A stretch of 32,361 nt of DNA from Candidatus Parcubacteria bacterium (GTDB lineage: Bacteria; Patescibacteriota; Patescibacteriia; CAIXNZ01): NCBI GenBank assembly GCA_026395755.1, contig JAPLYC010000099.1, positions 1 through 32,361 of the forward strand, written 5' to 3'. Every line of letters begins with the position of its first letter. Position 1 is the first letter of the stretch. Position numbers and translations under genes: made by a program. Below the pieces are notes generated by a model. That model had not been told where the DNA came from. It saw only the letters and a program-made list of their open reading frames with translations, and did no database searches. This document shows, in pieces, positions 5,148-30,885 of this stretch.

Positions 5148-5150
5148 CTT

Positions 5151-5957
5151 TTATTGGTTAGGAATTATAACAGCTACGATAGAAATTTCATTATAAGCAA
5201 TCAACGGATTAATGGTAGCAGATTGAAACAGCTCGCTGCCCTGACTGATTATACGGTTAATTTTTCCAATTAAAAGACCTCTGGGAATATTAGCTTCAGT
5301 TCCGGAAGTTATAATAAAATCCCCTTCATTAATTAATATATCTTGAGGAATATAATTAACCTTTAAGCTTAAACCATATTCACCTTCCGCCAAACCATTT
5401 GTTTTATTGCTGGATTCCAGACTGATAGCGAGCTGACTCATTTTATCATTTAAAAGTAAGACGGTTGACATATAATCCTTGGTATCAATGATTTTACCGA
5501 TAATAATACCCCGATCTACCACGACAGCAAAGCCGTCCCTGACTCCGTCTTGAAAACCCTTATTTATAATTAGGGAATTAGCTTTATTCGTATCTTTGCC
5601 AATGACAGCCGCTAAGACAGTATTATAATTTTTATCTTCCTTGAAATTAAGAATAGTCCGTAATTTTTCATTTTCCACCTGATAAGCCTTTAGCTGACTA
5701 TTATCATAGTTTAATTGATTGAGCTGCTCCTTTAATTCAGTATTTTCCTTTTTTAAATTTTGGGCGTCCTGATAATTAATAAACGAGTATTTTAATTTGG
5801 TTAAAAAATTAAAAGTATTGCCCTGAGCCATCCCCATGACATTAAAAAAATTATCTTCAAAAATTCTTAAAACTCCGAGATAATGGAAAAAAATAAGCAG
5901 TATGATAACTGCTATGATATAAAATTTAATTAAACGATTTTTACGTTCAACTAGCAT
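5151..5957 (-). CDS. mreC: Rod shape-determining protein MreC
   Basis: N-terminal TM, coiled coil (LKKENTELKEQLNQLNYDNSQLKAYQVENEKLRTILNF), MreC beta domain 'NKGFQDGVRDGFAVVVDRGIIIGKI...LLLNDKMSQLAI'. Confidence 0.92.
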   Translation of the reverse strand: MLVERKNRLIKFYIIAVIILLIFFHYLGVLRIFEDNFFNVMGMAQGNTFNFLTKLKYSFINYQDAQNLKKENTELKEQLNQLNYDNSQLKAYQVENEKLRTILNFKEDKNYNTVLAAVIGKDTNKANSLIINKGFQDGVRDGFAVVVDRGIIIGKIIDTKDYMSTVLLLNDKMSQLAISLESSNKTNGLAEGEYGLSLKVNYIPQDILINEGDFIITSGTEANIPRGLLIGKINRIISQGSELFQSATINPLIAYNEISIVAVIIPNQ

Positions 5958-5961
5958 ATTT

Positions 5962-12400: not shown

Positions 12401-13022
12401 AAATAAAATCAAGCGAGTCTCTGCCATCCAATCTATCCGCATTCATGGAATATGGCGTAGCAGTGAATCTTTTTCTGGGAGAAAAAATTTCTTCAAAAAC
12501 AGTATCATTATTATAATCGAGCTCAACCTGCAGATAGAAACTGTCCTGCTGGAAAGTTACTCCGCCACTACTGGGAGCAGAGCAATCACCCACCCAATTA
12601 CCGCACAAGGAATTTAATTCCACGGTAAAGACACCCTGACTGACACTGACTTTACTGCCCTGAACTTCTACAAGATCATCATTTTGATCAGAACCGTCCC
12701 AAACTTCAGTCCAAAGCAAATCACCGTCAGTCTGGGTATTAAAAATTTTAAACTGCATATTATAATCACCATCAGGAGGCGGCACGCCATCGGCATTGAC
12801 TATTTTACCCTGATAGCTGAGCGTATCTCTGATGCCTTCACCGGCTATAAGATTGCCATAGTAAAGCGAATAAACATAACCTAAGGCAAAAGCAATCATA
12901 ATGCCCAAAAGCAAAGTAACTGAAAAAACCAGCACCGGCTTATTTACCCTGCTTAGTCTTTTTGTAACCTGATCCCAGACTGAAATTTTAGCAAAGATTT
13001 CCTTATTTTTAATCTTCTTCAT
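9480..13022 (-). CDS. Giant exported/anchored protein with three LamG (concanavalin-like) domains
   Basis: 1180 aa. N-terminal TM 'VLVFSVTLLLGIMIAFALGYVYSLY', then 'DTLSYQGKIVNADGVPPPDGDYNMQFKIFNTQTDGDLLWTE'. Three LamG-like units: 'GTWVQLVATYNGNGSSDGIKIYFNGLPVDD...LHIGRYDTTYAKGRIDDFMIYRRALSADEVQSLY', 'NWHHYAMTWNNGNYEVSVDGASVATGTY...LNGTMDSVALYDDVLTETEI', 'KWHHFMVSFDFGGNASIFRDGDYWQNS...FNGKLDSVIFYDL'. Confidence 0.88.
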   Translation of the reverse strand: MKKIKNKEIFAKISVWDQVTKRLSRVNKPVLVFSVTLLLGIMIAFALGYVYSLYYGNLIAGEGIRDTLSYQGKIVNADGVPPPDGDYNMQFKIFNTQTDGDLLWTEVWDGSDQNDDLVEVQGSKVSVSQGVFTVELNSLCGNWVGDCSAPSSGGVTFQQDSFYLQVELDYNNDTVFEEIFSPRKRFTATPYSMNADRLDGRDSLDFILKSGGDNGIMTGSLSVPQVIDISLVTYLQFANYTSPGAYYVTNDSSPNNLSAKTFNTAPSEGILPLDGINAYGQIDDTDDLSFGIGTADIPFTISAWIQPADATNFIIAGKGIYNTNAEYKFYIDENDKISFQLFDESVDNSYIGRMFNAETLTGYEGTWVQLVATYNGNGSSDGIKIYFNGLPVDDAERENGSYVAMENLAADLHIGRYDTTYAKGRIDDFMIYRRALSADEVQSLYSGSQYKLNVNAYQLKSRYLVLTGIDGTNFEDSYMYYDGISNQIILDQKMFIPDNIPAIDNTKNDRDYTHFIDENKILAYDFSTPLEGINDLEGNADGSYNANYPFVNSGYYGYGFSLDHAGDYISFSDPGVSVTTGTIEMWAKLNNIATSETDYLAYFSESSTTSLELVKQGTSDLYAKVGDATLADTTYDIPDTNWHHYAMTWNNGNYEVSVDGASVATGTYTSPITAPTTLLLGYGNTADTSLNGTMDSVALYDDVLTETEIINHAQSSFNTLYINDKLKAGLTETTLENLISSPASLNEKNIYDPVFFQNTGNKKLALGFSEGYGIKTYSNDDNNNFATINGATWSKGGMYGHGMSFDGIDDYLEISDHESLDMGNNDFAIEFWINGSALGNNGKKVISKRDGDTGYEIYYNSSSDSLRFFIGDGTNTVDSAATGYDFSDGKWHHFMVSFDFGGNASIFRDGDYWQNSTVDISAVTGSISNSANLLIGKDSAGNYFNGKLDSVIFYDLTYSSQFNLYDAFSRVGRSPDLLFVIGRNTPSNIGTLSVINQSNDGHGVIIGMINPNNTSNYPLVFWNDNSYDSSGHTVYNMIYFGSHLLGTNTEYGNLKWDSTDNRFILSKGLSVSGDLTANYLSTDGNENLAHDVVRHTLTSGEAAAGTFLVSWGKAVTQDKIADLRATTLALSADPDEVWADDWTYGFDQGVMYDGTNFTVNVLNGTWVENDIVTIYIVYEK

Positions 13023-13053: not shown

Positions 13054-16000
13054 TTAAAAATTACCGATTACTGTAATTGTTATGGTGTGAGAGTATAAAC
13101 CGGGCGTGGTATCATATTTAATTCTGGTGCCGTGGCAAAAATTTGTTACCCCCTGATTAACACCATCAGTGGGGCCATTATAAGTGGCAAAAATATGGTC
13201 AGCTGTATCAACTAAGCCTTTGGCCGGCAAATCAGCCGAATGACCTGTATATGACGAACAATTACCAGTATATGCCGGCAAATAACTAGCAGTATCCGTT
13301 GTATCTATCCCAATACCATATTCTCCATATTGAGCTGAGATTGCCTCTGTATCATAAATATAATCAATTGCAGGGCTAATCACAGAAGTACCATTTGTAA
13401 AACCCTGATCCTGCTTGATTGAACCGGTATAGCCACTAACCGCATTGGTAGCCACAGTGGCGCTATAACCGCAAGTTTGAATATCGCTAGTAGTCAATGT
13501 TCCTAAATTACAGGAATTATCTGACAATACCAGGCTTATTTCCGGTTCCACCTGGACATTCACATTTACCTGGGCAGACTGAGGCTGCATTACAAAATAA
13601 GTCATATCTCCATAACGGCTAGCCCAAATAACATAATCACTACTGCCCATAGAATCGCCGCCCATTAACCACATACGATCCTGAAAAACAGTATAGGAAA
13701 AAAAGTCACGCCCATCCCATTCCGCCCAGCTGGTTGCGGTATTCCAAGTAGCGCCATCTATCGACCAATAAACATTATTGGAATCCATACGGCTACCCGG
13801 AATATTGGCATATAGTCCGTTATTACCGCCGTAAACCCACATTTTGTCCTGAAAATCAACTAAGGCAAAAGTATATCTGGGATTCCAAGCAGCTGAACTG
13901 GTAGCCTGTGTCCAAGTACTACCATCTGGGCTGGACCAAACATCATTTACTGACGAACCTACAATTTCTCCTGTCACTGTATGAAATCCACCCATTACGT
14001 ATAAATTGCCATTATAACCAAGGGCATTGTGTCCAAAACGAGTTGACCAGGAACCAACACTAGTTTCCAAATTCCAAGTCGCGCCATCAGCTGATGATAA
14101 AACATCATTTAAGGCAAAAAAATTACAATTGCCATTAGTACCGCAATTGGAATGAGAACTGCAAGTGGTACCAATATTACTGCCGGCCACACAAACCTTA
14201 GAACAAGTAGAACTCGGACAATCAGTATCTAAGCGACAAATTTCATTAATATAGGTTCCGCCGGCACATTTTCCAGAAACATCGCCACCCAAAATCCACA
14301 TTTTCTCTCCACTACCATCATCAAAAACCGCAGAGGCAAATAAATATCTGCCGTAAAAATAATCAGAAGAAGGTGTGGTAACATCCCAATTAATACCATC
14401 CTCTGTTGACCAAACATCATTTAATCCGGCATAAACGCAAGTACTGGATGCTCCACAGTCTGCTCCCTTAGTGCAGGCCTTATTATTATCTGCGCCTCCA
14501 CTACAGATTCCACCGCATTGAATACCGCCGCCGCCAGAACCAGTTTTACTGCCGCCAATTAACCAAAGTTTATTATTATATAGCAAAGTTTTATGTCCCC
14601 AACGGGATGACCAATCAGCAGGATTTGGATCCATGGTCCAAGTGACTCCGTCAGGAGATGACCAAATATCATTTCCAGGTCCATAAAACCATAATTTTTC
14701 CGGATCAGGACCAGCGCCATCACCGTCAAAAGCAACCATGGACGATGCCCAGCGCTTGCCAAAAATTCCATCATAATAATCCCCAATCAAATCCCAAGTG
14801 GCACCATCAGCAGTGGTCCAAACGTCATTCCACATACGATAGCCGACTTCATAACCGCCCAACATAAATACTTTACTTCCCGTACCCGGGTCATGGACCA
14901 CGGTTTTCAATCTAAATCTGGCTGACCAGTTTGTCCAGGTTGTGGGCTCTGAATTACTGGGATAATGATCCTCCGGATCAATTACCTGCTGCCACCCCTG
15001 GCTAGGTTGATATGACCAGACATCATTAAGCATGGTACTGGTTATACTGGCACCGCCCATAACTAAAATTTTATTGCCCAAATCAGGCACATCTGCAGGA
15101 TAATCATAGACAACAGCAGTAAAATCATTGCGTGCTGTCCACGGTGCTGAATAATTACAGGTACTGCCGGGACAACCTGAATTATCAGTACAAAGCTTGC
15201 CTAAATTACTTCCTCCCTGACAAAATTTAAGATGCGTCCAGGTTGTAGCAGCAGTGGTTGTCGCCTGCCAGACATCATTTTTTGAATATGGAGAACTTAA
15301 ATTATAACCGCCTAAAATCCATAATTTTTCACCAGCACCGTCATCATAAACAACCATTTGATGGATTGTTAAATTACCAAAACCCGATGACAAGGATACT
15401 TGATTCCAGCCAGAAGCAGGATCTGAAGTTGACCAAAGTTCATTTAAAACTGTAGTTCCGTTGTAACCGCCGGAAATCCAGATTTTTCCGTCATAAACAG
15501 TTGTGGCAAAAAGGCCCCTAACGCTCCAGTCAGCATTAGCTACTTGAGTCCAGGTTTTTCCATTTGTTGACCACCAAACATCATGATAAAAAACACGAGT
15601 ATTGGAACCGGTATAGGCATCGCCCCCGAAAATCCACATTTTATTAGCAAAAACCGCTGCGCCAAAAGATTTACGCCCAGCCCAGGGTGCATCTTCTGTA
15701 ATTAAATCCCAATTTTCCCCATCCTGAGAACGCCAGACATCATTTTCATAATTATTAGCAGACCCTCCTAATAGCCACAAATAACCCTGGAAAGAAAGGA
15801 CTTCATGGCCATTGCGGCTATGCCAGGGCATTGAAGATCTAGTTTTTTTCAGCCAATTTGCCCCAGTCGGCGGATTACATATAATCTGTTCTCCGGTGCC
15901 AGCAACAGTAGCAAGGATACCGATATCATATTGGCCGGTTGCCGAGCTGGAAACGGGATAAATTCTGGAATAATGGGTAGGATTATTTTCTGTCAATGAA

Positions 16001-16260
16001 TAATGGCTTTGCGCCACCCCATCATCGCCTTCAATCACAGCCCAAACATCAGAAGCTGTAAAATTTACCACAGCGCTAATCGTAATATCATCACCCGGAT
16101 AAATAATATATGGCGTCACGCTGCAACTCATGGTATTAGCTGCCTGAGCCTCTTTTACTAATTGATTGATCGGAAAAATTTTAATAATAACAAAAAAAAT
16201 TAGCAAAATAAAGCCGGCCGAACTCAAAGCAATGCTAACTTTTATTGCTAATTTTTTCAT
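13054..16260 (-). CDS. Secreted Kelch-repeat-like protein with four Cys-rich modules and C-terminal WxL-like '-GNF' domain
   Basis: 1068 aa with signal peptide/TM. About 12 units of type 'kmWilGG....NDVWsSpDGatW' (e.g. NDVWRSQDGENW, NDVWTTADGATW, NDIWSSPDGVTW, NDVWSTEDGINW, NDVWSSPDGSTW). Ends 'ISLVLSDNSCNLGTLTTSDIQTCGYSATVATNAVSGYTG...FCHGTRIKYDTTPGLYSHTITITVIGNF'. Confidence 0.88.
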   Translation of the reverse strand: MKKLAIKVSIALSSAGFILLIFFVIIKIFPINQLVKEAQAANTMSCSVTPYIIYPGDDITISAVVNFTASDVWAVIEGDDGVAQSHYSLTENNPTHYSRIYPVSSSATGQYDIGILATVAGTGEQIICNPPTGANWLKKTRSSMPWHSRNGHEVLSFQGYLWLLGGSANNYENDVWRSQDGENWDLITEDAPWAGRKSFGAAVFANKMWIFGGDAYTGSNTRVFYHDVWWSTNGKTWTQVANADWSVRGLFATTVYDGKIWISGGYNGTTVLNELWSTSDPASGWNQVSLSSGFGNLTIHQMVVYDDGAGEKLWILGGYNLSSPYSKNDVWQATTTAATTWTHLKFCQGGSNLGKLCTDNSGCPGSTCNYSAPWTARNDFTAVVYDYPADVPDLGNKILVMGGASITSTMLNDVWSYQPSQGWQQVIDPEDHYPSNSEPTTWTNWSARFRLKTVVHDPGTGSKVFMLGGYEVGYRMWNDVWTTADGATWDLIGDYYDGIFGKRWASSMVAFDGDGAGPDPEKLWFYGPGNDIWSSPDGVTWTMDPNPADWSSRWGHKTLLYNNKLWLIGGSKTGSGGGGIQCGGICSGGADNNKACTKGADCGASSTCVYAGLNDVWSTEDGINWDVTTPSSDYFYGRYLFASAVFDDGSGEKMWILGGDVSGKCAGGTYINEICRLDTDCPSSTCSKVCVAGSNIGTTCSSHSNCGTNGNCNFFALNDVLSSADGATWNLETSVGSWSTRFGHNALGYNGNLYVMGGFHTVTGEIVGSSVNDVWSSPDGSTWTQATSSAAWNPRYTFALVDFQDKMWVYGGNNGLYANIPGSRMDSNNVYWSIDGATWNTATSWAEWDGRDFFSYTVFQDRMWLMGGDSMGSSDYVIWASRYGDMTYFVMQPQSAQVNVNVQVEPEISLVLSDNSCNLGTLTTSDIQTCGYSATVATNAVSGYTGSIKQDQGFTNGTSVISPAIDYIYDTEAISAQYGEYGIGIDTTDTASYLPAYTGNCSSYTGHSADLPAKGLVDTADHIFATYNGPTDGVNQGVTNFCHGTRIKYDTTPGLYSHTITITVIGNF
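14120..14275 (-). other. Cys-rich module copies 3 and 4 (C-x9-C-x5-C-x4/5-C) within the Kelch protein
   Basis: 'CAGGTYINEICRLDTDCPSSTC' and 'CVAGSNIGTTCSSHSNCGTNGNC'. Same Cys spacing as copies 1 (~15157-15225) and 2 (~14435-14508). Confidence 0.8.
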
Positions 16261-16318
16261 TTTTATAAATGCTAAAATTAATCAATTTTCATTGATCCTT
16301 TTCATCCTCTCACTCAAA

Positions 16319-16339
16319 CCGGAGGCAAAAAGCCTCCGG
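16319..16339 (-). other. Perfect 8-bp GC-rich hairpin between two surface-protein genes
   Basis: CCGGAGGC-AAAAA-GCCTCCGG. On the minus strand it lies 3' of the 16370..17554 gene and 5' of the Kelch gene. No long U-tract follows, so it is a possible weak terminator, attenuator or stability hairpin. Confidence 0.7.
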
Positions 16340-16369
16340 CAAGTATCTCAAATCTCTGATTTTATAAGC

Positions 16370-17554
16370 TTAGAAATTTCCAACAATGGTAAGCGTAACT
16401 GTCTGGGTATAACTTCCCGGAGGGGTGTCAAACTTGATTCTGACCCCATGACAAAAGTCTGTCTTTCCAGTTGTCACACCGTCTACAGGCACAGCAGAAG
16501 TGGCAAAAACATAATCTGTTGTATCTGCAGCCAATCCATTAGCATTTAAGTCGTTAGTTAGACCATCATAGTTTGTTGTACAAACACCAGTAAAATTAGC
16601 ATCAAAATAATCCAGAGTATCGGTTGTATTTACCCCAATGCCATATTCACCATAAGTAGCTGCTAAAGCACCGGTACCATTAATTTTACTATCATCCACT
16701 TCGGAGGTAATTGTAGAGGTTCCATTGGTAAATGCCTGATCTTGCTGAATATAACCGCTATAACCATTAACCGCATTGGTAGCCACAGTAGCACCATAAC
16801 CGCAAGTTTGAAGGGCATCAGTTGTTAAGGTACCCAAATTGCAAGTATTGTCTGATAAAGCGAAAGAAATAGTCGGATCAACCGTGGAAGTAATATTCAC
16901 CTGGTTGCCATTACCGATATAAGCCAGATCAGTTTGTAACCAGACTATGTCATCAGGAGGAGTGGCATTTGCAACCAAACTTTCTACTGCTATTTTATAA
17001 TTCCCAGCAATTGCTGGTGCTACCACGCTACAAGCATCAGCCCCGGCATTACAGTTTAATGAATTGGCATTATCATTAATTGACCTGAATTTGATACTCA
17101 TAGCACCGGCAGCAATTGTGTTAGTTGGCTGAATTACTACTATTGTATAATTGGCGATTAAACCAGTATAAATAACTGTCTTATCCCTAGTATCGTCCGT
17201 AGATTGGGTACTCGTTATACGCTGAGTACCACCACTACAAGTACTTGTACCGACATAAACCACTACTTCTGACTTAGTATCAGTAGCGCTGATTTTTAAT
17301 TTACTAAGATCATAATTATTATCAAAAGCCACAATTATTTCATTACCGGTATTAGTACCAAAATCATAAGCCGTATAACCGTCAGGATCTGTCCAGCCAA
17401 CGCAATAATCAGTATAAGCACCAGTCGCAATACCTGAATTAGGTGTGATAGTAACGGTTGGCGCCAAAGCCAAAGCCTGGTGCGGAGCAAAAAAAGTCAA
17501 TAATGGTACCAGTAAAATAATTAAACACACAATAAACAATTTTCTGTTAAGCAT
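16370..17554 (-). CDS. Secreted two-module surface protein: N-terminal 'yDLs' module + C-terminal WxL-like '-GNF' domain
   Basis: 394 aa with signal peptide 'KLFIVCLIILLVPLLTFFAPHQALA'; 'GNEIIVAFDNNYDLSKLKI...IAGNYKIAVES'; C-terminal 'ISFALSDNTCNLGTLTTDALQTCGYGATVATNAVNGYSGYIQQDQAFTNG...FCHGVRIKFDTPPGSYTQTVTLTIVGNF'. Confidence 0.85.
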   Translation of the reverse strand: MLNRKLFIVCLIILLVPLLTFFAPHQALALAPTVTITPNSGIATGAYTDYCVGWTDPDGYTAYDFGTNTGNEIIVAFDNNYDLSKLKISATDTKSEVVVYVGTSTCSGGTQRITSTQSTDDTRDKTVIYTGLIANYTIVVIQPTNTIAAGAMSIKFRSINDNANSLNCNAGADACSVVAPAIAGNYKIAVESLVANATPPDDIVWLQTDLAYIGNGNQVNITSTVDPTISFALSDNTCNLGTLTTDALQTCGYGATVATNAVNGYSGYIQQDQAFTNGTSTITSEVDDSKINGTGALAATYGEYGIGVNTTDTLDYFDANFTGVCTTNYDGLTNDLNANGLAADTTDYVFATSAVPVDGVTTGKTDFCHGVRIKFDTPPGSYTQTVTLTIVGNF

Positions 17555-17605: not shown

Positions 17606-18649
17606 TTAAAAATTTCCTAAAATACTATAACTAATCAACTGATTATAAAATCCGGCTTTAGTCTGGGGAGATACTGCTAATCTAAGTGTAATTAAAGCGC
17701 TTGTGGATAAGTCTCCTTGTATATAATTATACACTGAATTGGCACTTAATAAAAGAGCACCTGTGGATGAAACAGGAGTATCATCATCGCTGTAATCCCC
17801 TGCCTTGATCATGCCTGTCCCGGCTGTTAAAGCCAGACCATAACCCTCGGTTCCGGCAGTAACTATCTGGTCTTCGGTTATATTGGCAATAGTAGCCTGG
17901 CTATTACTCAAATTGCCGTCAGCTTGGATAAAAACCTGAAATCCCGTAGGTAAATTAGTTTCCGGTGCCAGGCGATAAGAACATTCACTGACAGCACTAT
18001 GGGAAATAACGCCGAAATTACAGCCTGTAAACACTCCGTTATCATCGCTATTACGCAGTTCAAAGCTTATGCTGGGCTCAATCGTGCCTGTAAAACCAAC
18101 CATATCAGTAGTTAAAATCTGGGTAGAAATAGTACCCATATCGCCAAAACTGCCTGAAAGACTGATATAATAGGCACCTGCTATATCCGGATTATATATA
18201 TGCTTATCTCCCACTACCTGGTGGCTCGCGTTGGTACCGATTTTAATGGTTATAATTGAACCTGACGCAATTGTATCAGTATCATTTTGGGTAAAAGTAA
18301 TCGTTTGACCTGAAATAACAGCTCCGATATTGCCACCCACGCCGGTTCCGGCTGTTAAGCCTAAGTTTTTATTGGCTCCGTCATCCAATAAATCAATATC
18401 CGTATAATCAATTTGAGTCAGATCAAAACCGGTATCAAAATATACTTCCAGAGTTTTATCCGGTGCCCAATCAGACGATGTGGTAAAGGTAATTTCATGA
18501 TTAGCGGCTGTCGCAATAGTCTGGCTGCTTAATTGATCGCTAAAATCGGAAACCAAGCCGGCTTTGACCTGGTGAAATAATAAATATGAGATACCCAATA
18601 GTAATAATATTAACAAATTTTGAATCCGATGTTTCAGCATAGTTATCAA
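17606..18649 (-). CDS. Secreted two-module surface protein: N-terminal 'yDLs' module + divergent C-terminal '-GNF' domain
   Basis: 347 aa with signal peptide; 'KTLEVYFDTGFDLTQIDYTDIDLL...IYNPDIAGAYYISL'; C-terminal 'ISFELRNSDDNGVFTGCNFGVISHSAVSECSYRLAPETNLPTGFQVFIQADG...KAGFYNQLISYSILGNF'. Only the first Cys pair is retained. Confidence 0.8.
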   Translation of the reverse strand: MITMLKHRIQNLLILLLLGISYLLFHQVKAGLVSDFSDQLSSQTIATAANHEITFTTSSDWAPDKTLEVYFDTGFDLTQIDYTDIDLLDDGANKNLGLTAGTGVGGNIGAVISGQTITFTQNDTDTIASGSIITIKIGTNASHQVVGDKHIYNPDIAGAYYISLSGSFGDMGTISTQILTTDMVGFTGTIEPSISFELRNSDDNGVFTGCNFGVISHSAVSECSYRLAPETNLPTGFQVFIQADGNLSNSQATIANITEDQIVTAGTEGYGLALTAGTGMIKAGDYSDDDTPVSSTGALLLSANSVYNYIQGDLSTSALITLRLAVSPQTKAGFYNQLISYSILGNF

Positions 18650-19692: not shown

Positions 19693-20688
19693 TTATTTCT
19701 TTGCTTTTGCAACTTTGGTATACTTTTTCAAAAGCCAAGCATTGTATTTCTTAACCAGGAAGTAAATAATGATAACTACCAGCAAGATGACAACCAAATT
19801 TACAATAATGACATGCCAGGGAATTACCCAGAAACTGGTAGAAGCATTAAGCATATTAGCTGCTGTGCCATAGCTTAAACTCAAATCAGCAGTATATTTA
19901 CCAAAAGCATAATTTTCTTTTTCCTGCCTGTATTTACCCCAAAAAGTCGTTGCCCCCTTAGCATTGGCATTTTTCACCCAACTGGCGTCATATTTGCGGA
20001 TCTGATCAGGTAAAATATTACCGCCTGTTTCATTCACTATCACCTTGCCTGCTTCAGAACCAAACATGTTTTTAATCACAATGGAACCGGTCGGTTTGAG
20101 ATGGACATTGCCTGAATTTTTAACTCTGATATTGAAATCAACCGGTAATGATAAAAATGATTTTGCAGTGGTGCCAAATTCCGCTAATTCAGCGGACTCC
20201 TTAATTTCACCGGCAATCTTGACCAAGACTAAAGCGCCTAATCTGCTGGTAATTCCTACCTGGGAAACATTAGCTTTTGCTGTCGGAGGCACACTGCTTA
20301 AGAAAATAGCAGCATAATGACCGCCCGGACCTGCAAATTGAGGCACGGCAATTGTAAAAGGAATTTCTACTGTTTGGCCGGCCTGAATACTGATATTGTC
20401 AAAGCCAAATTTAATCCAAGCTGCCAAATCAACTTCTTCGGTTTTGCCTTCTACGAATTCAGGCGCGCCTGTTTCACCTGAAGCAGTGAATTTAACCGCG
20501 GACAAATAATAGGTTTCCGCTGTAGTGTTTTCATTGTGCACTTTTAGCACCTGGTTAATGATGTCGCCTTTTTTGGCGTCAATCTCCAGAATCGGAGGAG
20601 AAATGGTAAGAGCATTGCCAGCCAAAGGCAGCAAAATCCCCAAAAGCATGCCGACCATCACTAAACTACATATTTTTTTTGTTTTCAT
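19693..20688 (-). CDS. Membrane-anchored DUF916/WxLIP-like protein
   Basis: 331 aa; signal peptide, then 'LTISPPILEIDAKKGDIINQVLKVHNENTTAETYYLSAVKFTASGETGAPEFV...WIKFGFDNISIQAGQTVEIPFTIAVPQFAGPGGHYAAIFLSS', second Ig-like part 'SLPVDFNIRVKNSGNVHLKPTGSIVIKNMFG...', C-terminal TM 'VIIVNLVVILLVVIIIYFLVKKY' and basic tail. Organisation resembles DUF916+DUF3324 proteins of WxL loci. Confidence 0.72.
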   Translation of the reverse strand: MKTKKICSLVMVGMLLGILLPLAGNALTISPPILEIDAKKGDIINQVLKVHNENTTAETYYLSAVKFTASGETGAPEFVEGKTEEVDLAAWIKFGFDNISIQAGQTVEIPFTIAVPQFAGPGGHYAAIFLSSVPPTAKANVSQVGITSRLGALVLVKIAGEIKESAELAEFGTTAKSFLSLPVDFNIRVKNSGNVHLKPTGSIVIKNMFGSEAGKVIVNETGGNILPDQIRKYDASWVKNANAKGATTFWGKYRQEKENYAFGKYTADLSLSYGTAANMLNASTSFWVIPWHVIIVNLVVILLVVIIIYFLVKKYNAWLLKKYTKVAKAKK

Positions 20689-20732: not shown

Positions 20733-21815
20733 TTAAAAATTGCCGACTACTGTGATTGTCACCAGCTGTGTATAAGCGCCAGGAGCCTGGGTGCCGATTA
20801 TTCTGGCTACATGACAGATGGATGTATTGCCGGTTGTTACACCACCGTCAACAGCTGTAGCTGATGAAGCAAAGGTCTGAGCAGCTGCATTATCCAAAGA
20901 ACCGATCGGAACATCGAATGATAAAGCATCATTATTTATAGCTGCGCAATTTGCCCAGTTTACTCCCAAAGCCGGGTAAACAGATCCCGTATCTTGGGTA
21001 ACTATTCCGATACCATATTCTGAATTTGTAATTACTCCACCATCAATCTGGTCATTATCATCGCCGTCAGCTTCACGCATAATTGAATATGCCCCATAAC
21101 GTAAACCACCATCTGACTGTATTGCTCCCGTATAACCTCCGATAGCGTTGGTACCCACGGTTACATCATAACCGCAAGATTTAAAAGCACTTGCGCTCAA
21201 AACCCCTAAATCACAAGTATGGCTGGATAATGTCAGGCTTAAAACCGGATCAACAGTACCATAAATAACTACCTGATTGCCCCCAACAGCATTGATAAAG
21301 ACTGCAGCCACACCAGTATCTTCCAGTGTATCAGCATCTGCCCCGGCTCCTCCAAAAAGCCCATCATCACCCAAATCCCAGGTAGTAACTGTAATTATAT
21401 AATCACCTGGAATTGTCGGATTAACAAGATGGGAATTACTTAATGTTACTGTAATTGCATTATCAGGTACAGTACCACCTGTAGTTATAGGAATCTGCAA
21501 ATTTTGTCCGCTTTTAACAGCGGTTCCTTTAGTTGGATTTCCGCCAGTTTGAGTTACCGCCACATCAGCATTTAACACTCCAGTAATATCATAATCCGTT
21601 TCAAAATTAATTTGAATACCATCGCCATCATTTACTTCTGTAGCCGGATCAAATACAAAAGTCCCATTGACAGCTGCTGAAACTTCATAGTTGCTTAGAG
21701 ACGACTGGATAAAAGTGATGGAACCAGCCTGGGCATTCGGGATATTGATCAGACTCAACGAGAAAATCATGACAATGATTCCCCCGATGGATAAGAACTT
21801 AAAAAATTTCTTCAT
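20733..21815 (-). CDS. Secreted two-module surface protein: N-terminal 'yDLs' module + C-terminal WxL-like '-GNF' domain
   Basis: 360 aa with signal peptide; 'DGIQINFETDYDITGVLNADVAVTQ...LVNPTIPGDYIITVTTWDLGDDG'; C-terminal 'LSLTLSSHTCDLGVLSASAFKSCGYDVTVGTNAIGGYTGAIQSDGG...ICHVARIIGTQAPGAYTQLVTITVVGNF'. Confidence 0.85.
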   Translation of the reverse strand: MKKFFKFLSIGGIIVMIFSLSLINIPNAQAGSITFIQSSLSNYEVSAAVNGTFVFDPATEVNDGDGIQINFETDYDITGVLNADVAVTQTGGNPTKGTAVKSGQNLQIPITTGGTVPDNAITVTLSNSHLVNPTIPGDYIITVTTWDLGDDGLFGGAGADADTLEDTGVAAVFINAVGGNQVVIYGTVDPVLSLTLSSHTCDLGVLSASAFKSCGYDVTVGTNAIGGYTGAIQSDGGLRYGAYSIMREADGDDNDQIDGGVITNSEYGIGIVTQDTGSVYPALGVNWANCAAINNDALSFDVPIGSLDNAAAQTFASSATAVDGGVTTGNTSICHVARIIGTQAPGAYTQLVTITVVGNF

Positions 21816-22021: not shown

Positions 22022-23620
22022 TTAAAAATTCGCAATAACAGTAAGGGTTACTGTATGAGAATATAATCCCGGAGGCGTATCATAGCTAATAGTCGCCATA
22101 TGACAAAAAACTATAAGTTCTTCCGCCACAGGTTCCCAATTATTACCCCACAAAATAGGGGTATTTTCAAATGGTATCCCGTACCGGTCAGGTGTTGTTG
22201 TACCATCATAAGTTGCGCATTCATCAATATCATAGCTATCATCTAAATCTAACAAACCATAAGTTTCCGTACCGGGTGTATATGGTTCAGAACCCACATA
22301 ATCAGTCATTTCATGGCCGCCCGGGATTTGAAATTTATGATCTTGCCCTATGTATTGGACATAACCATTAAGAGCATTAGTGCTAACAGTCGCGTAATAA
22401 CCGCAGGTATTTAGCACGCCCGGGTCAATAGTCCCTAAATCACAGGTATTACTGGATAATGCAAAAGAAATGGTCGGATCTACTGCTGCAGTTATATTGA
22501 CATCATCATCTAATGGCTTAGGATAAATAACAACATCCTTACTTCCTTCATCAATTATGCTATCCAATCTAGTAAATGCCCCGTCATAACCTTCGCAGTA
22601 GAAGTTATATGTTTGAATTGTTATGGGATAAACACCAGATGATAGGGGCAAGCTTAAATTTGTATCCGGATATATAAGGTTTTCAATACCAATAACAACC
22701 TCATCGCCTCCCGGGATTACCCACTCTGACCAAGGAAAAAACGAAAAGCCAAAGCAAATAGCATCTTCACAACCATTTACGGCATCATCAACTAGAAAAG
22801 GAGCAGGAGGATGTCCCCAAGGAACAGCTTCTTTATAAATCGTAACATCAGAGATGTCTATAGCCGATAAGTTAAAATTGGGTCCAAAATATATTTTTAC
22901 GCCATTTTGATAACAACCATCATCCATCCCAACAAAATGAGTTGGGGTAAAACGTATCTCGGCCTTACATACTGGCGTACTATCAAAATTAGTTTCATTC
23001 GTACATTCTTCAGACACCGTATTCCAATCATAAAAATTAACGTCGCTCAAATTTATGGGGGCAGGAGAAATAATGCCGGCAGTAATAGTGCTCGTATCAA
23101 TACCCTTACCAAAACTGTCCGTAACATCCATTTGAATCTCGTAATCACCGACAGTATATGGTGTTCTGATTTTATTATTAGCAATCACGATATTCATATA
23201 GCTACCTGCTGCGCAAATATCCGTATCAGTAGAGTCTCCTAAGGTTATAGTGATAATATCCGCATCAATTCCTTCGCCGTCAGTGACAACTACCGTTTCA
23301 TCATCCATTACATTAGCATCATCATCGCAAGTGATAGTAACATCCGCCGTCCCCACGGCGCCCACATTAAATTGATTTTTTTGATCTGCCGAAAAATCAA
23401 CAAAAGTTAGAATTATCTTATCAGAATCAGTACCGCTTATTTCCTCAATTAAATTAAAAACTCCGGCGGTTATATTAATATTGATGGGAACAGCATTAGT
23501 TGAGATTTTATAACTGCTTAATTGTACACTTCCCTCGGCGCTAGCCAACCTGGGATAAAATAACGTTAAATAAAAAACTAAAAGTATTAAAAAAGAGGCT
23601 TTGGCAAAATATGATTTCAT
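22022..23620 (-). CDS. Secreted surface protein: two 'yDLs'-type modules + C-terminal WxL-like '-ANF' domain
   Basis: 532 aa with signal peptide; 'DKIILTFVDFSADQ...' and 'GVKIYFGPNFNLSAIDISDVTIYKE...'; C-terminal 'ISFALSSNTCDLGTIDPGVLNTCGYYATVSTNALNGYVQYIGQDHKF...FCHMATISYDTPPGLYSHTVTLTVIANF'. Confidence 0.84.
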   Translation of the reverse strand: MKSYFAKASFLILLVFYLTLFYPRLASAEGSVQLSSYKISTNAVPININITAGVFNLIEEISGTDSDKIILTFVDFSADQKNQFNVGAVGTADVTITCDDDANVMDDETVVVTDGEGIDADIITITLGDSTDTDICAAGSYMNIVIANNKIRTPYTVGDYEIQMDVTDSFGKGIDTSTITAGIISPAPINLSDVNFYDWNTVSEECTNETNFDSTPVCKAEIRFTPTHFVGMDDGCYQNGVKIYFGPNFNLSAIDISDVTIYKEAVPWGHPPAPFLVDDAVNGCEDAICFGFSFFPWSEWVIPGGDEVVIGIENLIYPDTNLSLPLSSGVYPITIQTYNFYCEGYDGAFTRLDSIIDEGSKDVVIYPKPLDDDVNITAAVDPTISFALSSNTCDLGTIDPGVLNTCGYYATVSTNALNGYVQYIGQDHKFQIPGGHEMTDYVGSEPYTPGTETYGLLDLDDSYDIDECATYDGTTTPDRYGIPFENTPILWGNNWEPVAEELIVFCHMATISYDTPPGLYSHTVTLTVIANF

Positions 23621-23676: not shown

Positions 23677-24426
23677 CTAAAAGATAGGTATGAATTCATA
23701 AGTCAAAACCGTCTCGTAAGCGCCGGCGGGTGTGTCATCGGCAATATTAACTATAGCTGTAACAGTGAAATTTGTCTGATAAGAGTAGCTCTCAGCATAA
23801 GCAATGGTATCGCCCTCATGAAAAGCAAATTTATTAACCTGATTATAATTAGGAGCTGCCAAGCCAATGCCGCCACTGGGATTAGCGCCTAATGCCGGCA
23901 AAGTGTTTCTGACTAAATTAAGTCCAAATTGTTCAGCGCCGATTGAAATTGAAGCAGCAGTAGTGCCAATAGGCTCAATTGTGTAATCAGCCGAATGCAA
24001 GGACTGGCCGTAAACTTTAATCGTATAACCTTCTTTGGCATTGGTATAAGCGGAAAAAATATGAGTGGCATAACGCGTTATTTTAGGCGAAAGTTCGCCA
24101 AAATCCAAATTTACAGACTGTACGCTAAAACCAACTGTCGGTTCACCTTCAATGCCGGAAAATGCTGTCCGCTGACCAAAATTAGCACTCTCGCTCCGGC
24201 CGGCAGTAAATTCAGACAAATTGGAATCAACTTTAAACCCGGTGCTGTTGGTCAGTCCCCCGCCGGCATCAAATGTATCTATCCAAATCTGGTAATTATC
24301 ACTGGACATACCGGCAATTGACTGATGCGCCAAAGTAATGACCACTGCTAAAACCAGAAGCTTGATTACAACCCTTAAATCTTTCTGCAATTTTTTAATT
24401 TGCTTACTCTTTTTTCTTTTTTGCAT
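23677..24426 (-). CDS. Secreted protein with Cys-free WxL-like C-terminal domain (track ORF 23677..24480, start re-assigned)
   Basis: 'MQKRKKSKQIKKLQKDLRVVIKLLVLAVVITLAHQSIAGMSSDNYQIWIDTFDAGGGLTNSTGFKVDSNLSEFTAGRSESANFGQRTAFSG' then 'VNLDFGELSPKITRYATHIFSAYTNAKEGYTIKVYGQSL...PAGAYETVLTYEFIPIF'. The internal ATG at 24426 precedes a plausible signal sequence; the 24480 start would add a long overlap with the upstream gene. Confidence 0.78.
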   Translation of the reverse strand: MQKRKKSKQIKKLQKDLRVVIKLLVLAVVITLAHQSIAGMSSDNYQIWIDTFDAGGGLTNSTGFKVDSNLSEFTAGRSESANFGQRTAFSGIEGEPTVGFSVQSVNLDFGELSPKITRYATHIFSAYTNAKEGYTIKVYGQSLHSADYTIEPIGTTAASISIGAEQFGLNLVRNTLPALGANPSGGIGLAAPNYNQVNKFAFHEGDTIAYAESYSYQTNFTVTAIVNIADDTPAGAYETVLTYEFIPIF

Positions 24427-26959
24427 GTTTAATAAATCTATCAATAATTTCCAGCCTGGTTTTATTTCGGCCGTCAGCATTTCCCTCTTTATAAACTTGC
24501 CGCAGCATATTTTTAGTGATTGGGTTTTCTTTTATCTTTTTCAATAAATACATGCAGCTTAACAGTACTGTCAGCAAAACCAGCAGCAAAATTATCCAGA
24601 GATACCAGGCTGAAAATCTTGGTGCTAATTTTAAAACTTTACTGATATTAAAATAAACCTTTTCACTCGGAGCTGAATCAATAAAATTCACGTTGGCAAT
24701 GCCGTAAATACTATATTTACCGGGCGTCAAAATTTTATCAGCATAGGCCAGCCAATTGCCGTTGTAATCGGCTAAGGTATAAATAATTGTTTGCGGCACA
24801 GATGAAATAAATAAATAGACTTTGGCGCCCGTTTGAGCCCGTCCCCGGATCAGGGGAAACTCCACCTTATCAATTATGGGCGCAGCCACCACGAATTCCG
24901 GCCGGTTAATAATATACTTTTTCTGTTCTGCTATAATAACCGCCATTTTCGGCAAATCAATCCCGGCCTCAATCACATTACCGGCATTATCAACGGCGCG
25001 TAAAGTCATAATTTTTCCGTTTTTATCCGCCTCGCTGAAAGTATATGGACTCTGAACTTTTTGCCACGGACCTTCATCCAGCTTCATTTCAAAGTAAGCT
25101 AAACCGGAATGATTATCAATAGCTGAAAAATAAATCTTATCGCCTTCAATGCTGGGCTTGAAAAATTCCGGTGCCGTATTATCAATCTTGACCTGATAAT
25201 GCGCGGTTGGTCCATAGCCGTCGCTGTATTTTACTTTCAGGTGAAAATACCAAAAACCGTCAGTTAATTTGCTGAAAGAAAAAACTTTATCCTGAGAAAA
25301 GAAATAACCGATCGCGGGATCTGACAAGGGATTCTGATCAATATTAAAAGTATAGCCTAAATTCTGTTCCGCTACATCCCAGACAAATTGGGGCGTATTA
25401 TTGCTGTACCAGGTTTCCTGGCTGAGATGGGTCGGCGAACTAATAGCAGGCAAGCTTTTTTTCAGAGGCTGTTCGAATTCCTGTTTCTGACATTGAGGAA
25501 TTGGACAGGAATTGCCTCCCCCGCCTCCCCCGCCGCAGGGCGGACACTGACCGCCAAAAACAGTAATACGCACGGCTTGGCTACTTTCCAATGGATTGGC
25601 ATTATTGTCCCGGGCTTTAAATACCGCGTAATATACCCCAAAATTCTTGGGAGTCCAGGTAAAACGCGAAGTTGAAGTTATGCCGTTACTAATCGGGGTT
25701 AAGCTGGCGGTTTCCAGTGGTTCTGAGCTTAAGCTGACATTATCACCGTCCGGATCAGTGGCTGAAACATTGAAAGTCAGGATTTCGCCGGCATTGATTG
25801 TTTTTTCCGCAATCGTTTCAAAAACCGGCGCATGATTTGGCGGCACTGACACCCCGATACTCACTGCCAAATTTGAATTTTTAGGATCAGTCGGATGATT
25901 ATCTTGGGCATTAAAACTGGCTGTATAAACACCTTCTGCTCCCGGAGTCCAGGAAAAATCACCGCTGACAACAACCGCATTATTGACTACATTAGTGAAA
26001 GTGGCTCCGGCTGGAATCGTCCAGGTCAAATTTACCAAATCGCCTTCAGGATCAGTAGCCTGCACATGAAAGCTGACACCGGCTCCCAAATTAATTGATT
26101 TATTGCCAACCGGCTGAAAAATCGGAGCATGATTGGCCGGCGGCACCGGAACCGAAACATTAACTGTAACAGCCAAACTACCGGTTTTGGCACCGGTTGA
26201 ATTATCATCAGTGCCATAGAATTTAAGAGTATAGCTGCCATTAGCTGTCGGTGTCCAGTTAAAATCGCCTTCAGCCACCGGGCCTGTTGTGATATTACTA
26301 ATTATTGCATCAGCCGGAATATCCGTGGTCAAAGTCACATTATCTCCGTCCGGATCACTTGAACGCACATGAAAGCTGACAGTCTGTCCCAAATCAATTG
26401 TTTTATTGCCAACCGGATCAAAAACCGGAGCGCGGTTGGGCTGCGGCGGTGCGCCCAAAACATTGATGGTAATATTAAAACTGCCGCCTAAATTTAACAT
26501 TTCCACCTGATCAGGAGAAATTAAATGTGAACCTGTGGCAAAATTTATAGTGGAACTGCCGACAGCATTGGCTTTAAAAATTAAAGTTCCAAATTTACTA
26601 TTGGTACTGACGCTGTCAACCAGGATAAAACCGCCGACATTAATATGGGAATTAGCATCATCCAGTACCTTCCCCGGACTCTGGTTTGGCCAGGCAGTGC
26701 TTAAATTAAAATCTTTAATTGATAATACCTTTCCGCCGGGAGCTGCCGGAATATTGGTAAAATCAGAAATCAGACGCACGGTATTAATAGCAGCGCCATT
26801 GGGTTCAACTATGATATCAATATAAACATTTTCACCGACATAATAATCGGTTTTAGCCGAAGTCAGCCGGAAAATTGCCCCTGCCGCCTGTGCCGGTAAA
26901 ATCGGGATAAAAAGACTGACTAAAATCAGGAGCAAAATAATTTTGGATAGTTTGGACAT
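24404..26959 (-). CDS. Membrane-anchored cohesin-like + three Ig/cadherin-like repeats protein
   Basis: 851 aa. N-terminal cohesin-like 'FRLTSAKTDYYVGENVYIDIIVEPNGAAINTVRLISDF...FILVDSVSTNSKFGTLIFKANAVGSSTINFATGSHLISPD'. Three 'NHAPvFepVgnKtInlGqtvsFhV.atDPdGDnvsLt...FsWTP...GvYt..F.a.Dn' repeats. Linker 'CPPCGGGGGGGNSCPIPQC'. C-terminal TM 'YLWIILLLVLLTVLLSCMYLL' and basic ~50-aa tail. Confidence 0.8.
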   Translation of the reverse strand: MSKLSKIILLLILVSLFIPILPAQAAGAIFRLTSAKTDYYVGENVYIDIIVEPNGAAINTVRLISDFTNIPAAPGGKVLSIKDFNLSTAWPNQSPGKVLDDANSHINVGGFILVDSVSTNSKFGTLIFKANAVGSSTINFATGSHLISPDQVEMLNLGGSFNITINVLGAPPQPNRAPVFDPVGNKTIDLGQTVSFHVRSSDPDGDNVTLTTDIPADAIISNITTGPVAEGDFNWTPTANGSYTLKFYGTDDNSTGAKTGSLAVTVNVSVPVPPANHAPIFQPVGNKSINLGAGVSFHVQATDPEGDLVNLTWTIPAGATFTNVVNNAVVVSGDFSWTPGAEGVYTASFNAQDNHPTDPKNSNLAVSIGVSVPPNHAPVFETIAEKTINAGEILTFNVSATDPDGDNVSLSSEPLETASLTPISNGITSTSRFTWTPKNFGVYYAVFKARDNNANPLESSQAVRITVFGGQCPPCGGGGGGGNSCPIPQCQKQEFEQPLKKSLPAISSPTHLSQETWYSNNTPQFVWDVAEQNLGYTFNIDQNPLSDPAIGYFFSQDKVFSFSKLTDGFWYFHLKVKYSDGYGPTAHYQVKIDNTAPEFFKPSIEGDKIYFSAIDNHSGLAYFEMKLDEGPWQKVQSPYTFSEADKNGKIMTLRAVDNAGNVIEAGIDLPKMAVIIAEQKKYIINRPEFVVAAPIIDKVEFPLIRGRAQTGAKVYLFISSVPQTIIYTLADYNGNWLAYADKILTPGKYSIYGIANVNFIDSAPSEKVYFNISKVLKLAPRFSAWYLWIILLLVLLTVLLSCMYLLKKIKENPITKNMLRQVYKEGNADGRNKTRLEIIDRFIKHAKKKKE

Positions 26960-27034
26960 ATTTGTTTAAATTATAGATTTTAGATTATAGATTTTGGATT
27001 CAAACTTTGGACTTCGAACTTCGGCCTTCGGACT

Positions 27035-28378
27035 TCAATACACCGAGTCCCAGTGTGCCGCCAGACCGGATAAATCAAAATCATCCACAATGCCGTCTTC
27101 ATTAAAATCCGCATAGCACCAATTGGTTTCCCAATGTCCGGCTAATCCGGCCAAATCAAAATCATCAATCACTGCATTGCAATTGGCATCCCCGACTTCA
27201 CAACGGTTAACAGTAGCAGTTAAAAAAGGACTGTTTTGTCCATACGAATCTCTGGCAAAAATTAAAAATAAATTTGCACCCAGTCCCAGACTAACCGGCT
27301 TATTCCAGGTTAAATCAGTCGGGTAATTTATATTCTCGCTGTCTCCATTTATAAAAATAGTAGTGCTACCGGGTTTGGTGCCATCAATCGTAACCGTGGG
27401 TAAAAAAATCGGACAAAGACGCTGATTAATTGTGGGCTGTGCCGGCGGCGGCGGCCAGGGATTGCCGCTGTTATTGGTAGTGGCATAAACTTCATTGGAA
27501 ATCGCATTATTACCCTGATCATTATATACATAAACCACAAAATAATAGGTGCGAGCCGGAGCCAAGCCGTCAATATTAAAAATAGTCTGTGTCCGAAGAG
27601 TAGGATCTGTCGGATTAGCCTGGTCAGGAATTACTCCGGGAATACCTGGAATCGGTAAAAAAGTACCGTTTAAATCTGTAACTCCCGGGCTAGTACCCAT
27701 ATACAATACATAACGATGAAAATTAAAGTCCAAGTTTTCACTCCAATCAAGATCAAGCGAATTGGTCAGGACATTATAAGGAAAATTTAAAATCACGGGA
27801 GTCGGTAAAGTGCCCAATGGCGCGCCGTTTACTCCCACCTGATCATCGGCAATCGGGACTGCCAGTCGCCCGCTATCGATTAAATTATCAGCAATGTCAT
27901 ACAGCGCAAGGGAAATTATTTTGGAACCCAAGGCCAGCGGATTAACAATTTTATGTGCAGCACCGATACTGATTATAACAATATCATTAGGCGCAATATC
28001 CCCGGTTGAACGAATTAAATCAATATGGTTGCCTGAACGCGATAATCCCCAATTTACTGCTGTCGGGTCAGCGACGACTGTTTCAGATATCTCCTGACCC
28101 GTGACTGATCCATGTGTCAAAGTAACATCTGAATAAATAATTGCACTTAAATCAAAGCCGCCGTCAAAACTGATTCGGATGTAATCCCCAGCTCCCGTCA
28201 AACCGCTTGGCGTGGTAAAAGTAAATACATGGTCAGAAGGAATTGCGGGCGCATGCCTGCTCACTCTATCGCTTAATGTATGTAAATTCGCTGCTTGCAA
28301 ATTATAAGGCAATAAAAAAAACAAAATTAAAAATAAACCAAATCTTATCCATTGTTTTTGTTGCCAAAAAATCCTCAT
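27035..28378 (-). CDS. Secreted protein: 'yDLs' module + FN3-like domain + C-terminal type I-like dockerin
   Basis: 447 aa with signal peptide; 'DYIRISFDGGFDLSAIIYSDVTLTHG...IVNPLALGSKIISLALYD'; FN3-like 'LDLDWSENLDFNFHRYVLYMG...LAPARTYYFVVYVYNDQGNNAISNEVYATT'; tail 'GDANCNAVIDDFDLAGLAGHWETNWCYADFNEDGIVDDFDLSGLAAHWDSVY' = two EF-hand-like dockerin repeats. Stop is TGA. Confidence 0.85.
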   Translation of the reverse strand: MRIFWQQKQWIRFGLFLILFFLLPYNLQAANLHTLSDRVSRHAPAIPSDHVFTFTTPSGLTGAGDYIRISFDGGFDLSAIIYSDVTLTHGSVTGQEISETVVADPTAVNWGLSRSGNHIDLIRSTGDIAPNDIVIISIGAAHKIVNPLALGSKIISLALYDIADNLIDSGRLAVPIADDQVGVNGAPLGTLPTPVILNFPYNVLTNSLDLDWSENLDFNFHRYVLYMGTSPGVTDLNGTFLPIPGIPGVIPDQANPTDPTLRTQTIFNIDGLAPARTYYFVVYVYNDQGNNAISNEVYATTNNSGNPWPPPPAQPTINQRLCPIFLPTVTIDGTKPGSTTIFINGDSENINYPTDLTWNKPVSLGLGANLFLIFARDSYGQNSPFLTATVNRCEVGDANCNAVIDDFDLAGLAGHWETNWCYADFNEDGIVDDFDLSGLAAHWDSVY

Positions 28379-28425: not shown

Positions 28426-30885
28426 TTAAAAATTATTAACTACGGTAATGGTTAAGACCTGATAATAAGTACCGGGCGGAGTTGCGTAAGAGATTGCCAC
28501 AGCATGGCACAGAGAGACAGTATCATCACTGACAGCGACTGTTGACATCGCAAAGGACTGTTCACTCGTGGTTATTGCCGCAGCCGGCATGGGAGTATTG
28601 CCGTTATTATAGCTGCCACAATCAGTTACCTGTTTATCAATGCCTAAACTGGCATAATCGCTGTCACTGGTTGCGGCGCCATATTCTTCATGTCCGGGTG
28701 TAACAAAGCCGTCGCTAACCGCAGTCAGATTATTACTGCCGCTTCTTAAATTATCATCAGCTTTGACATAAGCGATATATCCGTTAACGGCATTGGTGGA
28801 CAAAGTCAGACTATAGCCGCAAGTTTTTAGCTGCCCTGAATCAAAGGTCCCTAAATCGCATGTACCTGACGGTAAAGAAAAAGTTAAGGTCGGATCCACA
28901 GTGGCTGTGATATTCACATCAGCGGTTGTAAGTTCGGTTTTGGCATCAACATCAAAATAAAAATATTGTATAGTGGGCGAATTATTAATATTGCTTGTGG
29001 TCAGATTGGCTTTCCAGCGCAAATCAGTGCCGACATTGGTAAAAGTATGTTCAAGGCCAGGCGTCACTACTTCCCAATGAGAACCGGCGTCAGCGCTCAA
29101 ATAATAGGTAATTCCGGTACTGCTGGGTGTATTATCTAATACAGACAAGGTGGCCTTGGTAATATCGGTGCCCGGATAAGCCGTGGCAATCTTGGTCGAA
29201 ACTAAATTCTGACTGGATGTCGGGTACAGATTATTATTAAATTTGGTAAATGATAATTCCGTGCTTGACTGCCAGCTAAGTACGAAAATATTTTCAGTAT
29301 TTGGTTCATAATAAACCGGAGTCTCCCAGGCGATAACACCATTGGGGAAAATCGTATCCTGATCATTAGTTATTTCATCACCGCCTTTAAAATCATTGCC
29401 GGTATATCGGCTTAAATATGTAGGTTGCGGTGAGCCTGACATATTAGTAAAAACAAAAATCGGGTAATTATTGTTATCAAACGCCAGGGGCAAATCAAAT
29501 TGGCTATTATTATATAATATCCTAAGGTAGGAACCATTAGTCACAGAACTTATTTGTTCCCAGCCGTCTGTCTGCCCGTCTGCCTTTTTCCAGGCATTAT
29601 TTTTCCACTGAGTAAAATATAATTCGTCATCAGTATTACCGGAAGACTGGGCGCTCATATATATTAGTAAAATATTATCAATATCCACATTTATACCGAA
29701 TAAGTAATCGCTTGCTAGATAGCTTATTGTTTCTATCCCGTCAGTAATCCCATCGGCATATTTCCAGGCGCTACCCACTCTTTTGGCCACAACAATTCTT
29801 TCCGGTATGGTTATATTGGCTGCGGCATAAATTTCATTAGCGCTATTTATAGCCAGAAATGGCCGATTACCTTGATTAAATAGGGTTAAATCATCGGTAT
29901 CTCCAGGAACAGCACTAAAAATATTACCGTCTAAATCTGTCCAATTACTGCCATCCCATTGACCCAAATAAGTATTGTAATCTCCAAGCCCGGATATAAA
30001 ATATAGTTCGCCATTACCGGCATATTTAAAATCCAAAGAATTATACATAGAAGTACCAGTTTCGCTGATGATGTCTTCTTGACCCGAAGTCGTTCTGTCA
30101 GCATGTTTCCAAACTCCGCTATTTAGACGGGTATATCTTAATTTTAAGGTATAAGGAACGCCGGATCCGATTTTTTCTTTCCACATAATCGTGGGCTCAT
30201 TATTATTATCCAGTTTAAAATCATAATTTCTATAATTAACATCAGCTCCGCTTGAGGATATCAATTCCAGCCCTGTAGTTGTCCCATCGGCTTTAGTCCA
30301 GCCAATACCTGGAGTATATTGCGAATACTGCACTGAATTATTAGCACCTTCCAAAATCGCGGCAATAGCAGGATAGCCCGAAGCTAATCTTAACACCTTT
30401 ATACGTGAAAAAGCATTTGCTAATTCCAAATTGTCAGGCTCGGTACTGGTTCCGGCTAGATTGGTCCAGCAATCAGTTTTGCTGCCACCGCAAACGTCGA
30501 TACCTGCTCCGACTGTCCATTTCAAAGAATAAAAATTTGTCGTATAAGAATAGACCACTACCGGCTGATTTTTCCCGTCAGCAGTGATATCAAAAACATC
30601 AGCATGCCCCCCCGGCAAGGTTTCATAAGTCGGACCGGCAGTATCATCAGCTTTGCGCCAGGCACCATTGATCAGATGGCCGCTTGTGGAATCAATTTCC
30701 CATTCAGCCGTGGTATTGGTCGAGTCTTTGTAAGTAGTGGTATTAAATGCTTCCACGAAAGTGGCGGCATGTACGATACTAATATAAAAATTGTTGAGCC
30801 TAGGTAAAATTAACCAAGCCGAAAGCAATAACAAAAATACATCAAAAACTATCCAACTTTTATAATTACGCTTGAGTTTGGACAT
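28426..30885 (-). CDS. Secreted repeat (propeller-like) protein with C-terminal WxL-like '-NNF' domain
   Basis: 819 aa; N-terminal TM/signal 'WIVFDVFLLLLSAWLILP'. Repeats 'aWkkADG.TdG.E.IS' (IGWTKADGTTTGLELIS, GVWKHADRTTSGQEDIIS, SAWKYADGITDGIETIS, NAWKKADGQTDGWEQIS). C-terminal 'LTFSLPSGTCDLGTFDSGQLKTCGYSLTLSTNAVNGYIAYVKADDN...LCHAVAISYATPPGTYYQVLTITVVNNF'. Confidence 0.85.
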   Translation of the reverse strand: MSKLKRNYKSWIVFDVFLLLLSAWLILPRLNNFYISIVHAATFVEAFNTTTYKDSTNTTAEWEIDSTSGHLINGAWRKADDTAGPTYETLPGGHADVFDITADGKNQPVVVYSYTTNFYSLKWTVGAGIDVCGGSKTDCWTNLAGTSTEPDNLELANAFSRIKVLRLASGYPAIAAILEGANNSVQYSQYTPGIGWTKADGTTTGLELISSSGADVNYRNYDFKLDNNNEPTIMWKEKIGSGVPYTLKLRYTRLNSGVWKHADRTTSGQEDIISETGTSMYNSLDFKYAGNGELYFISGLGDYNTYLGQWDGSNWTDLDGNIFSAVPGDTDDLTLFNQGNRPFLAINSANEIYAAANITIPERIVVAKRVGSAWKYADGITDGIETISYLASDYLFGINVDIDNILLIYMSAQSSGNTDDELYFTQWKNNAWKKADGQTDGWEQISSVTNGSYLRILYNNSQFDLPLAFDNNNYPIFVFTNMSGSPQPTYLSRYTGNDFKGGDEITNDQDTIFPNGVIAWETPVYYEPNTENIFVLSWQSSTELSFTKFNNNLYPTSSQNLVSTKIATAYPGTDITKATLSVLDNTPSSTGITYYLSADAGSHWEVVTPGLEHTFTNVGTDLRWKANLTTSNINNSPTIQYFYFDVDAKTELTTADVNITATVDPTLTFSLPSGTCDLGTFDSGQLKTCGYSLTLSTNAVNGYIAYVKADDNLRSGSNNLTAVSDGFVTPGHEEYGAATSDSDYASLGIDKQVTDCGSYNNGNTPMPAAAITTSEQSFAMSTVAVSDDTVSLCHAVAISYATPPGTYYQVLTITVVNNF

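Follow-up and report, generated by a model that had tools for sequence, protein, structure and literature searches.

A probable non-cellulosomal cohesin–dockerin surface anchor that recurs across Patescibacteria

Does a secreted dockerin protein of a Candidatus Parcubacteria bacterium dock onto a membrane-anchored cohesin protein encoded beside it, and what would such a lock hold in place? The question was raised by one stretch of 32,361 nucleotides, hereafter the window, in which two adjacent reading frames had been proposed as a cell-surface pair serving adhesion or wall assembly rather than a cellulosome. Both reading frames were confirmed on the minus strand: the dockerin gene occupies 27035–28378 and the cohesin gene, 75 b downstream of it, 24404–26959. 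A scan of the minus strand between the two genes found no terminator-like site. Near-repeats follow one another through the spacer (26960–27034; AGTCCGAAGGCCGAAGTTCGAAGTCC...AATCTATAATC), and the dockerin and cohesin reading frames are in phase.

The dockerin gene encodes a secreted protein of 447 aa, as judged from ORF coordinates, Pfam and hydropathy, with a hydrophobic N-terminus, an N-domain (residues 29–185), an fn3-like domain (201–304), an Ig-like domain (309–396) and a dockerin domain (396–444; 27047–27196, minus strand). The two dockerin repeats, GDANCNAVIDDFDL and ADFNEDGIVDDFDL, each carry D or N at loop positions 1, 3, 5, 9 and 12 and D-F at positions 10–11, matching PF00404 (Dockerin type I) in its feature of two Ca2+-binding loops with D/N at five positions. 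The PF00404 score was 16.2 bits for the whole protein and 21.3 bits for the domain alone, both below the gathering score of 22.9. Relatives passed it, with 25.6 bits at locus L098 and 32 bits at locus L184, and all 36 dockerin domains scanned matched the family at E ≤ 0.01 (best 6.7e-11). Across 92 distinct dockerin domains, the Ca2+ positions are occupied by D/N in 82–100% of cases. The two-repeat dockerin of the original prediction is therefore borne out and is canonical in form: every Ca2+ position is occupied by D or N, and its relatives match PF00404. Hydropathy indicated a signal-peptide-like N-terminus in 75 of 76 distinct dockerin proteins and a TM-like segment in one of the 76. Elsewhere in the window's genome (G000:C69; L082:7071-8804), a 577-aa protein carries three dockerin-like domains, and no adjoining cohesin gene was found there.

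ORF analysis, domain scans and hydropathy describe the product of the cohesin gene as a membrane-anchored protein of 851 aa. A signal peptide is followed by the cohesin domain (about residues 25–168, the A5 alignment span; 26456–26887), placed by model, Foldseek and profile; three Ig/PKD repeats of the Big_9/PKD-like type (residues 174–467; 25559–26440), assigned from Pfam and family comparison; an Ig-like domain (residues 502–669; 24953–25456), which scored 39.8 bits against NF047446 (cut-off 40); and a transmembrane helix (residues 787–805; 24545–24601), assigned by hydropathy and followed by a basic tail, all on the minus strand. The helix and tail claimed for this protein are thus real, and hydropathy placed a TM close to the C-terminus in 195 of 206 cohesin proteins. 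The Ig-like domain is common to most cohesin proteins; the Big_9/PKD-like repeats are full or reduced within the family and absent from more distant cohesin proteins. PF00963 (Cohesin; gathering score 24.1) gave no match to the window's cohesin domain. It matched 29 of 56 aligned cohesin domains (E ≤ 0.01; best 6.3e-12), with 26.6 bits at locus L081, and a combined dockerin–cohesin profile retrieved both dockerins and cohesins from the PDB. The two Pfam searches proposed for the pair therefore gave a divided answer: the window's own domains fall under the cut-offs, whereas relatives pass them.

Fold and docking were examined by AlphaFold2 on artificial read-through chains running from dockerin into cohesin. 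Reading one TGA and one TAA as residues brings the window chain into a single frame. The window chain (266 aa; 138 sequences in the alignment) was modelled with pLDDT 88 and pTM 0.77, and the chain of a diverged pair from locus L167 (236 aa) with pLDDT 91.4 and pTM 0.86; both include the cohesin signal peptide, and cohesin–dockerin complexes are already known to AlphaFold2. When the window model was compared with the PDB by Foldseek, 49 of the top 50 structures were cohesins, and a fibrillar-adhesin domain took rank 39; by target length, the TM-score was best for 2vo8 (0.83) and reached 0.76 for 2xdh. The predicted model thus has the cohesin beta-sandwich that had been expected at the N-terminus of the downstream gene's product. 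The cohesin makes up only about 57–61% of either chain, and a confident cohesin alone would by our estimate give a pTM of about 0.6. The two pTM values therefore appear too high for free domains, and the dockerin is probably placed against the cohesin in both models. The confident interface that the original prediction called for is to this extent indicated indirectly, through the pTM of two read-through pairs.

We then consider whether the arrangement is particular to this contig. A scan of genomes with an alignment of cohesin proteins, and thus with the cohesin protein alone as the handle, fetched 78 loci from records titled as Patescibacteria lineages or, in some cases, just 'bacterium'. 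A dockerin gene lies directly upstream on the same strand in 62 of them, as counted by script. Three further loci, L137, L180 and L184, were recognised as variants by eye, and two, L132 and L178, have no dockerin gene; the other 11 begin no more than 700 b into their contig, which cuts off the upstream side. The usual order in Patescibacteria is one dockerin gene, a gap with a median of about 13 b to the first cohesin gene, and then one to five membrane-anchored cohesin genes, usually several. Among 145 genomes drawn evenly from the phylum, the dockerin profile occurred in 41, the cohesin in 54 and both in 36, and a dockerin followed by a cohesin within 1 kb was observed in 27, against 0.12 expected. 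The adjacency is far beyond chance, and this phylum-wide order was out of reach of the original prediction. The window's genome has a second, smaller pair (G000:C114; L081:7785-9747), with a dockerin protein of 211 aa and a cohesin-TM protein of 428 aa, and pairs of this type are also present in G001 and G007.

Subtypes and topology point the same way. Where the dockerin has Asp at position 10, the cohesin lacks the late NDGxGT-type motif in 11 of 11 distinct pairs, compared with 15 of 72 cohesins scored as lacking it among the other pairs, several of which have near variants that the pattern missed; these counts ignore shared ancestry, and the pattern passed over some obvious variants. Judged from the sequences, the dockerin and cohesin subtypes appear to match, adding support to docking. 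A dockerin protein with a signal peptide and no TM, set against a cohesin protein with a C-terminal TM, also forms a seemingly complementary topology that supports it. Taken together, linkage, topology, subtypes and the pTM of the models support the view that the membrane cohesin protein would dock the secreted dockerin protein.

What the pair might hold is suggested by its neighbours, all on the minus strand. NCBIfam assigns relatives of these neighbours to the CPR Pam pilus. At 23677–24426 lies a PamT-like gene that overlaps the cohesin gene, its likely start (ATG at 24426) falling within the last stretch of the latter. Its 267-aa product scored 132.8 bits against NF058581 (cut-off 55) and 166.5 against the PamT equivalog NF058579, below the cut-off of 240, a score reached in none of 57 genomes. 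This PamT-like gene adjoins the cohesin gene in the window's genome, in G001 and in G004–G007. Pam-pilin-like proteins of 819 aa (28426–30885; NF058581 40.7 bits), 532 aa (22022–23620; 28.8 bits), 360 aa (20733–21815) and 347 aa from a TTG start (17606–18649) are also encoded; the N-domain of the 360-aa protein is common to the dockerin protein, and that of the 347-aa protein is homologous to the dockerin protein's. Apart from the 267-aa protein, four window proteins scored 21–41 bits against NF058581, all below 55, and 24 of 39 members of the pilin-like family matched it at E ≤ 0.001. Two further pilin-like proteins (13054–17554), of 1068 aa with Kelch repeats and of 394 aa, were assigned from clustering and the C-terminus; it is the C-terminus that groups the Kelch-repeat protein (13054–16260) with the pilin-like family, and NCBIfam gave no match for the 394-aa protein. 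A search of the pilin-like proteins for a WxL domain gave no match. NF058580, tried as a Pam family, proved unrelated to Pam. A WxLIP-like single-TM protein of 331 aa (19693–20688) itself matches fn3_5; 21 of 46 members of its family match WxLIP_PGBD (E ≤ 0.01), the window member not among them. Beyond these genes, 9480–13022 encodes a large protein that looks secreted and contains three Laminin G/ConA-like domains, and 2683–7014, downstream of the cluster, holds genes that by eye resemble those for penicillin-binding protein, MreD, MreC and MreB.

A WxLIP-like gene, a Pam-pilin-like gene or both occur in 40 of the 78 loci, with the WxLIP-like gene directly before the dockerin gene in 27; roughly half of the loci, some of them on short contigs, lack this context or have another. 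The N-domain of the window's dockerin protein recurs in pilin-like proteins, both those of the window and those encoded at other loci; among dockerin proteins it is a minority feature (17 matches, some of them the same gene in two loci). At loci with neither pilin-like nor WxLIP-like genes (L150, L151, L166, L177, L186 and others), a gene from a different family, with products of about 130 aa, often precedes the dockerin gene; one member tested, from L166, had no NCBIfam or Pfam match.

Because the pair recurs across the phylum, often with pilus-like genes nearby and with cellulose-degrading enzymes absent from its surroundings, it is probably used to hang a surface structure on the membrane in these bacteria. 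We consider it likely that the two proteins are a cognate, non-cellulosomal pair acting as a Ca2+-dependent, non-covalent surface anchor. The signal peptide would export the dockerin protein, which itself lacks an anchor. The dockerin at its C-terminus, once folded around Ca2+, would bind the cohesin that the 851-aa protein, held by its TM, presents at its outer end. Since the dockerin would bind a TM-anchored cohesin, the dockerin protein could be retained at the cell surface with no covalent attachment, and the several cohesin genes of other genomes would provide several sockets. The cargo may be a pilus-like or fibrillar surface assembly, a reading drawn from the N-domain common to Pam-pilin-like subunits and from the pilin-like, PamT-like and WxLIP-like neighbours. 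More tentatively, we suggest that Patescibacteria may fix a pilus-like fibre to the membrane by a Ca2+-dependent cohesin–dockerin plug, in which a dockerin-tipped subunit, with a domain in common with the pilins, would use any one of several TM-anchored cohesins; if so, one fibre would be exchangeable among sockets.

The pair may equally be real and the cargo different, the dockerin protein itself being an adhesin or wall component displayed by the cohesins. This is a sub-case of the anchor reading and competes with its pilus part only; we regard it as possible, short of likely. The N-terminal domains of dockerin proteins vary widely, many loci have no pilin-like neighbours, and the authors who reported an essential dockerin-domain protein in Southlakia suggested that it acts on host glycans (PMC10633639), whereas the N-domain held in common with pilin-like proteins and the frequent Pam/WxLIP-like context argue for the pilus. 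We find it improbable that the two domains are relics in a surface-protein operon that do not bind each other, the dockerin serving as a Ca2+-stabilised module or binding another partner. Some genomes do have a dockerin or cohesin match with no adjacent partner, and the binding that the anchor reading supposes is predicted; however, linkage holds in most evaluable loci, and the D/N occupancy of the Ca2+ positions, the pTM of two diverged pairs and the complementary topology all weigh against relics. That the locus is a remnant or minimal cellulosome, its cohesin protein tethering dockerin-bearing polysaccharide-degrading enzymes, is very unlikely and was rejected: the domain pair is that of cellulosomes and the window's LamG protein (9480–13022) has a sub-threshold GH16 match (E 0.007), but Pfam scans of window proteins gave no glycoside hydrolase family above cut-off, as the original prediction had held in calling the pair non-cellulosomal, the hallmarks of dockerin-bearing glycoside hydrolases (or any dockerin-bearing enzyme) and a multi-cohesin scaffoldin were not found among those proteins, and cohesin proteins usually carry a single cohesin each.

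A conserved two-part lock bears on the way in which surface structures are built and anchored in bacteria that are reduced, for the most part uncultured and probably dependent on hosts. Its recurrence through the phylum provides defined pairs for binding tests and suggests a use of cohesin and dockerin outside cellulosomes. The pair may also help to place SEML1_0315, an essential protein with a dockerin domain reported in Southlakia, of the Saccharibacteria (PMC10633639). A bounded literature search, which is no proof of absence, found nothing published on Parcubacterial cohesins or the Pam pilus, and nothing on an operon of dockerin with TM-cohesin, so that novelty is relative to the literature searched.

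Four known systems provide points of comparison. In the CPR Pam pilus (NF058579 for PamT, NF058581 for the pilin C-domain), the likeness lies in the 267-aa protein, which passes NF058581 and resembles PamT, with weaker paralogs; the two models, however, leave the cohesin and dockerin proteins uncovered. The WxL/WxLIP system of Gram-positive bacteria likewise combines a WxLIP-like protein, anchored by a TM, with secreted proteins that have a C-terminal domain in common, whereas the window's pilin-like proteins have no WxL domain match and a cohesin–dockerin pair is added. The clostridial type I cellulosome uses the same domain types and the same predicted docking mode; in contrast, the window has membrane-anchored single cohesins, and neither a multi-cohesin scaffoldin nor a dockerin-bearing glycoside hydrolase was found in it. 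Archaeoglobus fulgidus also has cohesin and dockerin outside cellulosomes, and the window model matched its cohesin structure 2xdh; specific binding of archaeal cohesin–dockerin pairs is reported in PMC9012536. In Patescibacteria, by comparison, the two domains belong to an operon found throughout the phylum, in which one gene for a secreted dockerin protein is joined by one to five genes for TM-anchored cohesins and often has pilin-like and WxLIP-like genes around it.
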